Assembly (NCBI RefSeq): GCF_000024425.1
Contig: NC_013946.1
Span: 1,550,001-1,614,000, forward strand
Length of the DNA stretch: 64,000 nt
Direction: 5' to 3'
Origin: Meiothermus ruber DSM 1279
GTDB taxonomy: Bacteria; Deinococcota; Deinococci; Deinococcales; Thermaceae
In this document: in pieces, positions 49,798 through 50,205 of the stretch
Layout: each line of letters opens with the position of its first letter
Position numbering within the stretch: position 1 is the stretch's first letter
Translations under genes and position numbers: made by a program
Notes under the pieces: model-generated
What the model saw: the letters and a program-made list of their open reading frames with translations, nothing else
Told to the model about the DNA's origin: nothing
Databases searched by the model: none

Positions 49798-50205
49798 GTG
49801 AGCACGATTTCTGGAGGCCGCTGGGTTGCCGAAATTTATGGCTGCAACCTGGAAGTGCTTGAAAACCCCAAGCTGGTTGAACTGGCCTTGCGCGACGCAG
49901 TGTTCAAGCTGGGCGCTCCTCCCGGAAGCGTACAAGCCACGGTCTACAAGTTCTACCCGCAGGGGCTTTCCGCCGCGGTGCTTTCGCCTGTGGCCGCGGT
50001 GATGATGCACACCTGGCCCGAGGACAAGGCCTCGGCCGCGCTCGATCTTTACTTCTACAAACACGACGTAGACCCCGAATCGGTGCTGCGCGGGCTGGCC
50101 CGGGCCTTCGGTGCCCAGGAGGAATCGGCCTTCCGCTTCTGGCGCGGCAACGAGCACGAGATCAAACGCCGCGCCCAGGCTGCACATGCCAGCGACCCAT
50201 CTTAA
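49798..50205 (+). CDS. S-adenosylmethionine decarboxylase homologue lacking pyruvoyl serine (pseudoenzyme)
   Basis: A 135-aa protein aligning end to end with bacterial SpeD/Spe[48 protein letters not shown]. Active proenzymes self-cleave at Glu-Ser-His, with the Ser becoming the pyruvoyl group, and use a Cys about 20 residues later. Here the Glu-Ser-His positions are Val65-Ala66-Ala67 and the Cys position is Tyr; only the processing His (His71) remains. It cannot form a pyruvoyl cofactor. Because speE follows 47 nt downstream, a regulatory or structural role in polyamine synthesis is inferred. Confidence 0.82.

Follow-up and report, generated by a model that had tools for sequence, protein, structure and literature searches.

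A catalytically dead SpeD paralogue next to speE in Meiothermus ruber and its candidate role as one subunit of a heterodimeric AdoMet decarboxylase

The speD1 gene and its neighbourhood

The window (the whole stretch of 64,000 nucleotides of M. ruber DSM 1279 DNA that we analysed, with coordinates counted from its first base) contains an intact gene, speD1, for a class 1b AdoMet decarboxylase (AdoMetDC) paralogue, followed on the same strand by an aminopropyltransferase gene. The features referred to below are these:

49779–49789, plus strand: extended -10-like element, TATGCTAGGAT here and TGTGCTAnnAT in relatives (upstream alignment of relatives)
49798–50205, plus strand: speD1, catalytically dead class 1b AdoMetDC paralogue, intact ORF from GTG 49798 to TAA 50205, 135 aa
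49951–49971, plus strand: retained motif F-Y-P-Q-G-L-S, SpeD1 F52–S58, equivalent to Thermotoga maritima Phe49–Ser55 and human Phe223–Ser229; F, P, G and S invariant in 48/48 SpeD1 proteins
49990–49998, plus strand: self-cleavage site gone, Val-Ala-Ala for Glu62-Ser63-His64; orthologues have V (48/48), A/G (48/48) and A/L/M (48/48)
50008–50022, plus strand: retained motif H-T-W-P-E, SpeD1 H71–E75, equivalent to T. maritima His68–Glu72 and human His243–Glu247; invariant in 48/48 SpeD1 proteins
50056–50058, plus strand: Tyr (SpeD1 Y87) replacing catalytic Cys83; Y in 47/48 and F in 1/48 SpeD1 orthologues
50253–51191, plus strand: speE, aminopropyltransferase (NCBIfam PRK00811, 263.9 bits against a cut-off of 260)

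SpeD1 aligned over its full length with T. maritima AdoMetDC (PDB 1tmi; E 3.8e-16), with 34–36% identity to the T. maritima SpeD, and this alignment placed SpeD1 V65-A66-A67 at Glu62-Ser63-His64; the human residue numbering behind the motif equivalences was checked. Against the class 1b profile TIGR03330 the protein scored 52.4 bits (E 5.9e-14), below the curated cut-off of 75.65. Its predicted structure (pLDDT 83.1) had the SpeD fold across the whole length, and the model matched T. maritima AdoMetDC (Foldseek E 3.9e-11; Z 15.5 and rmsd 2.1 over 109 residues to 1tlu_A by VIA-align) and the Aquifex aeolicus SpeD (Z 13.3). A preliminary description of this DNA had read an intact gene that keeps the SpeD fold pattern, its Glu-Ser-His replaced by Val-Ala-Ala and its catalytic Cys by Tyr; the 135-residue ORF is indeed complete, HTWPE and FYPQG are present in a protein whose predicted fold is that of T. 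maritima AdoMetDC, and both replacements were confirmed in the T. maritima alignment and in all 48 distinct Thermales orthologues, none of which (0/48) keeps the Ser and Cys of a functional class 1b enzyme. Judged by these residues, SpeD1 is unable to self-process or to form a pyruvoyl group, and is catalytically dead. The self-cleaving Ser of the SpeDA and SpeDC pyruvoyl decarboxylases is likewise missing, and because there is no pyruvoyl Ser we rejected the idea that SpeD1 is a neofunctionalised ADC/ODC.

The ATG at 49780 overlaps the extended -10 element, so the GTG at 49798 is the likelier start of speD1. The element sits about 8 nt 5' of this GTG and is kept in most relatives in the upstream alignment; both GTG and element are kept across most of the Meiothermus-like genomes, and Thermus has a similar element. 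Their conservation suggests a leaderless transcript from what is probably a leaderless promoter. The "good promoter" described earlier stands insofar as the extended -10 element is conserved in most relatives, but a sigma-70 scan at its strict threshold had no promoter match upstream of speD1. The position directly upstream of the aminopropyltransferase gene, also described earlier, holds more widely: speE starts 47 bp after the speD1 stop codon, and the two genes adjoin on the same strand in 49/49 loci from three families.

SpeD2, co-occurrence and published genetics

The preliminary description had proposed that SpeD1 is a prozyme-like regulator, which would call for a second, complete speD elsewhere in the genome. 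Our searches identified such a gene: SpeD2, with intact Glu-Ser-His and Cys, is encoded at genome position 2574730–2575065 on the minus strand, about 0.97 Mb from speD1, and scored 76.2 bits against TIGR03330, narrowly above the cut-off of 75.65. The genome (a single contig of 3,097,457 bases), which also encodes SpeA (832.7 bits), had no third PF02675 gene; dcSAM must therefore come from SpeD2, alone or with SpeD1, and because SpeA is present an arginine decarboxylase role for SpeD2 is not needed. The class 2 profile PF01536 had no match in this genome, but its control also matched nowhere. Aligned at the Glu-Ser-His and Cys positions, as had been suggested, the Thermales proteins were dead in 48/48 SpeD1 and M. 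ruber SpeD2 was intact at both. Thermus does have two speD genes, as the preliminary description also stated: in T. thermophilus HB27 SpeD1 is TTC0473, adjoining SpeE (TTC0472), and SpeD2 is TTC1093 (PMC4021367).

SpeD1 is under purifying selection, with a median pairwise dN/dS of 0.068 among Meiothermus-like pairs and 0.088 among Thermus pairs (0.054 and 0.119, respectively, for SpeD2). Because the same dead residues recur in 48/48 orthologues and dN/dS is low, a chance ORF, a sequencing error or a fresh pseudogene could be ruled out. A family search of 50 Thermaceae genomes identified two SpeD copies in 47, one in a single genome that is 65% complete, and none in two; all of the genomes at least 90% complete that have any SpeD (44/44) have both SpeD1 and SpeD2. 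Two genomes of the same genus, G006 (100% complete) and G019 (92%), lack speD1, speD2 and speE altogether, which suggests that these relatives of M. ruber no longer make dcSAM-dependent polyamines. Among the sequences of the class that were read, from genomes at least 90% complete, there was no SpeD2 with intact Glu-Ser-His and Cys without a SpeD1. In a family of the order without SpeD1 (f5), a SpeD2 orthologue persists in many genomes and its Cys is gone in all those sampled; the SpeD2 orthologue of G052 has Val in place of Cys. The f5 proteins (loci L113, L114 and L118–L135), often without the Ser or His as well as the catalytic Cys, constitute a second dead SpeD family. In genus g13 (L103, L104, L136 and L137) speD1-speE is replaced by a different, longer-type SpeD with a DKSHIAAHTYPD motif, which resembles class 1a, near a different speE, and G108 has a canonical SpeD beside speE.

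According to reviews of the published T. thermophilus genetics, SpeD1 is required for N1-aminopropylagmatine synthesis (PMC6418473) and a speD1 mutant has no long or branched polyamines (PMC6418473; also PMC9957541). Two published T. thermophilus speE-deletion primers (PMC9654539) both match our loci L065 and L071, where they flank a SpeD1 of the dead type. T. thermophilus SpeE is functional in E. coli on its own (PMC11107197), so the defect reported for the speD1 mutant points to dcSAM supply, unless the deletion was polar on speE. A protein that is needed for dcSAM yet has no pyruvoyl group would act through another protein, for which SpeD2 is the sole candidate.

Division of active-site residues and origin of the two proteins

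We aligned 48 distinct SpeD1, 54 distinct SpeD2 and 14 canonical SpeD proteins and compared the 18 columns that are conserved in at least 85% of the canonical set (T. maritima numbering). Seven of these are common to SpeD1 and SpeD2 (G5, L20, G53, H68, P71, D79, R112), five are kept by SpeD1 only (F49, P51, W70, E72, A76), six by SpeD2 only (H7, G56, E62, S63, H64, C83), and none (0/18) is lost by both, each loss in one protein being kept in the other. By a simple hypergeometric count this zero overlap has a probability of about 0.09 and is not significant alone; the main weight lies rather on the division of residues along the two halves of the eukaryotic enzyme. There the active-site residues are divided between the halves, and prokaryotic enzymes hold the union of both (PMC1282579); the human N-half has E67, S68 and C82, and the C-half F223, P225, G227, S229, H243, P246 and E247. 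Within the C-half, the His takes part in processing, and the ribose hydroxyls are bound by the Glu on that strand (PMC1282579); bacterial half-enzymes pair face to face like the eukaryotic halves (PMC5201418). SpeD1 and SpeD2 agree with this arrangement both in the column partition and in the human residues, one protein having an intact cleavage site and the other being dead.

SpeD1 retains Phe49, Pro51, Ser55, His68, Trp70 and Glu72, and SpeD2 is mostly without Glu72 and the Phe-x-Pro-x-Gly loop. The column of Glu72, which binds ribose, has E in 48/48 SpeD1, and in the 54 SpeD2 it has K (28), S (12), E (6), A (3) and single R, D, L, Q and H. His68 is kept in 53/54 SpeD2, the exception being a protein with Gln (L100, genome G053) whose SpeD1 in the same genome keeps the His. 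In another alignment register SpeD2 has a Tyr at the place of Phe49 in 49 of 53 readable sequences, with a loop of 6–8 residues instead of 3; because the Tyr fits there the loss of Phe49 is alignment-dependent, and Glu72 and the loop are firmer SpeD2 losses than the aromatic residue. Profile-sequence alignment with the human halves gave as best match for SpeD1 the C-half pattern F-x-P-x-G-x-S...IHxxPE, at an E-value of only 0.019, and no usable match for SpeD2. We dropped an attempt to match SpeD1 with the C-half and SpeD2 with the N-half by fold, since both predicted folds align best to the human C-half and the comparison does not discriminate. A baseline of viral SpeDs had the full canonical set in 44/46 distinct proteins, a sanity check only, as the search patterns bias the sample. 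The SpeD of Thermus phage phiYS40 (L303:642–1076) keeps both residue sets except that it has D at position 72 and lacks Pro51 and Pro71; it was reported active in E. coli (PMC9992855), so these two prolines are not essential and the case is not built on them. The phage protein is also a ready tool for complementing a speD1 or speD2 mutant.

In a tree of 129 alignment columns, with many weak forks and long branches, a split supported at 100/96 separates SpeD1, a single group (99/99) placed with the canonical AdoMetDCs, from SpeD2, which groups with DPANN archaeal proteins. That placement disfavours simple subfunctionalised duplicates, within what a short alignment and long branches allow. A search of the genome contigs with SpeD2 matched only Deinococcota and two DPANN loci (L166 and L168), of which L166 is a lone SpeD beside an agmatinase gene, an arrangement similar to that of the Woesearchaeota SpeDA that decarboxylates arginine (PMC10407285). 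The lone DPANN relatives, which also lack the Phe-x-Pro loop, probably decarboxylate arginine, and SpeD2 may descend from a line resembling arginine decarboxylases in which the use of AdoMet was regained through pairing with the old AdoMetDC.

Three fused double-SpeD proteins of DPANN archaea, from the phylum of a Woesearchaeota MAG, each have one intact and one dead domain with the same residue division as SpeD2 and SpeD1. That of G209 (L216:5249–6034) has Glu-Ser-His and Cys in its N-domain, and KFH and Arg in a C-domain with F49, S55, H68, W70 and E72; those of G198 (L215:2883–3602) and G165 (L213:2809–3597) have the opposite domain order. Separately, tandem SpeD pairs 2 bp apart were seen in G316 (L217:5012–5700) and G268 (L218), the second copy being canonical and the first keeping Glu-Ser-His and Cys, with Tyr at His68 and no F-x-P-x-G motif; judging from these residues they are possible further asymmetric heterodimers.

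A candidate heterodimer, its known counterparts and the alternatives

The death of SpeD1, its conservation, its co-occurrence with SpeD2 and the complementary residue losses are observed, and the requirement for SpeD1 comes from reviews of Thermus genetics. On this basis we think it reasonably probable that SpeD1 and SpeD2 assemble into a heterodimeric AdoMet decarboxylase that has a single, composite active site. SpeD2 would cleave itself at its own Ser and carry the pyruvoyl group and catalytic Cys; SpeD1 would be a non-processing subunit, pairing face to face with SpeD2 in the manner of an ordinary class 1b homodimer and supplying across the interface Phe49, Ser55, His68 and Glu72 (T. maritima numbers), which would hold AdoMet and help processing. 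In its one composite site the pair would resemble the class 2 enzyme of eukaryotes, whose halves are fused, and it would supply SpeE, encoded by the adjacent gene, with decarboxylated AdoMet. A more specific proposal, to which we give slightly less than even chances, is that the heterodimer is obligate and its subunits differ in ancestry, a dead AdoMetDC in the speE operon having joined a pyruvoyl subunit from the clade that holds the probable DPANN arginine decarboxylases. The literature searched, in which journal coverage was partial, yielded no description of an active-site-sharing SpeD1-SpeD2 heterodimer.

Among known systems the closest is class 2 AdoMetDC (human AMD1, potato), in which the pyruvoyl Ser and the Cys lie in one half and the dead other half supplies F223, S229, H243 and E247, exactly the set kept by SpeD1 within F-x-P-x-G-x-S and H-x-x-P-E; however, the class 2 halves are fused in one polypeptide, whereas here two genes that differ in phylogenetic origin lie about 1 Mb from each other. 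The canonical class 1b enzymes of T. maritima and A. aeolicus share the fold, and some canonical operons have the same speD-speE order, but each chain of these homodimeric enzymes has both residue sets, and SpeD1 cannot self-process. The SpeD-SpeD fusion of Victivallis vadensis also combines an intact domain with a dead one (the degraded C-terminal domain), although fused rather than encoded separately; it has AdoMetDC activity in E. coli and was proposed as a model for class 2 origin in a paper whose main text does not mention Thermus or Deinococcota (PMC10407285). In the trypanosomatid prozyme a dead AdoMetDC paralogue is likewise apparently needed for dcAdoMet production, and M. ruber too has a dead and an intact paralogue in one genome; the prozyme is a two-domain class 2 protein, whereas SpeD1 is a single class 1b domain of 135 aa that is probably completing an active site. 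Prozyme acts in a larger, fused enzyme by relieving the autoinhibition that an N-terminal segment imposes (PMC5201418), and from the residues the split eukaryotic enzyme appears to be a better model for SpeD1 and SpeD2 than this allosteric one. The prozyme-like reading of the preliminary description therefore survives in part: a dead protein is there, with an intact SpeD2, the state is universal in Thermales, and SpeD1 is needed in T. thermophilus according to reviews of the genetics; the allosteric regulator does not fit as well, the residue pattern being that of an active-site-sharing subunit, because SpeD1 keeps the active-site residues of the second half, some of which are gone from SpeD2.

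A true prozyme analogue, with SpeD1 activating or stabilising a SpeD2 homodimer that has complete sites of its own, is nevertheless the alternative we take most seriously, although we judge it unlikely. It would accommodate the constant co-occurrence with an intact SpeD2, the in vivo requirement described in reviews of the genetics, and a SpeD2 that keeps His68 in 53/54 and just passes the TIGR03330 cut-off (76.2 against 75.65); it would leave SpeD2 homodimers without Glu72 (E in 6/54) and the F-x-P-x-G loop, and SpeD1 holding invariant these otherwise unused residues, none of which an allosteric role needs. Several facts weigh against the heterodimer: Glu72 is still Glu in those 6 of 54 SpeD2, the Phe49 loss depends on the alignment, the lone DPANN relatives that are probable arginine decarboxylases also lack the Phe-x-Pro loop, and a polar effect on speE may underlie the phenotype of the T. 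thermophilus speD1 deletion. The adjacency to speE in 49/49 loci would suit a structural partner of SpeE, by analogy with the dead SpeD-derived N-terminal domain of human spermine synthase, which is linked to an aminopropyltransferase and derives from bacterial class 1b AdoMetDC (PMC11999265), and the SpeD1 model matches that domain (Foldseek 1.0e-05, Z 8.9). SpeD2 matches it about equally (Z 9.2), however, and the human domain is fused and serves dimerisation, whereas SpeD1 is a separate ORF, with a stop codon and 47 bp before speE, that keeps substrate-site residues; a dimerisation domain need not hold Phe49, Ser55, His68 and Glu72 invariant, and with T. thermophilus SpeE active alone in E. 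coli (PMC11107197) we regard this role as quite improbable.

It is a little less probable still that SpeD2 is a pyruvoyl arginine decarboxylase of the SpeDA type and SpeD1 a relic or substrate sensor. The grouping of SpeD2 with DPANN proteins, one beside an agmatinase gene (L166), and the arginine decarboxylation by Woesearchaeota SpeDA (PMC10407285) point that way, but the genome has SpeA (832.7 bits) and no other AdoMetDC, yet SpeE needs dcSAM; SpeD1, SpeD2 and SpeE are lost together, and SpeD1 is under strong purifying selection. That SpeD1 is a decaying, functionless pseudogene, as the loss of every self-cleavage residue and of the catalytic Cys might suggest, is barely credible given that it is intact in every Thermaceae genome with the pathway, with dN/dS of 0.07–0.09, eight active-site columns invariant in 48/48, a conserved promoter and a reported mutant phenotype.

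The heterodimer reading can be tested in E. coli with two genes. Thermales genes annotated "adenosylmethionine decarboxylase" beside speE cannot, on the residues they encode, work alone. A real heterodimer would account for the two speD genes of Thermus and for the need for the dead one in making the long and branched polyamines that sustain growth above 75 C. It would also provide, in a bacterium and with separate genes, an example of the asymmetric AdoMetDC that is the supposed source of the eukaryotic enzyme; and if the SpeD1-SpeD2 heterodimer is obligate and its subunits differ in ancestry, it would be a modern parallel to the step that led to the eukaryotic enzyme, repeated in the archaeal fusions.
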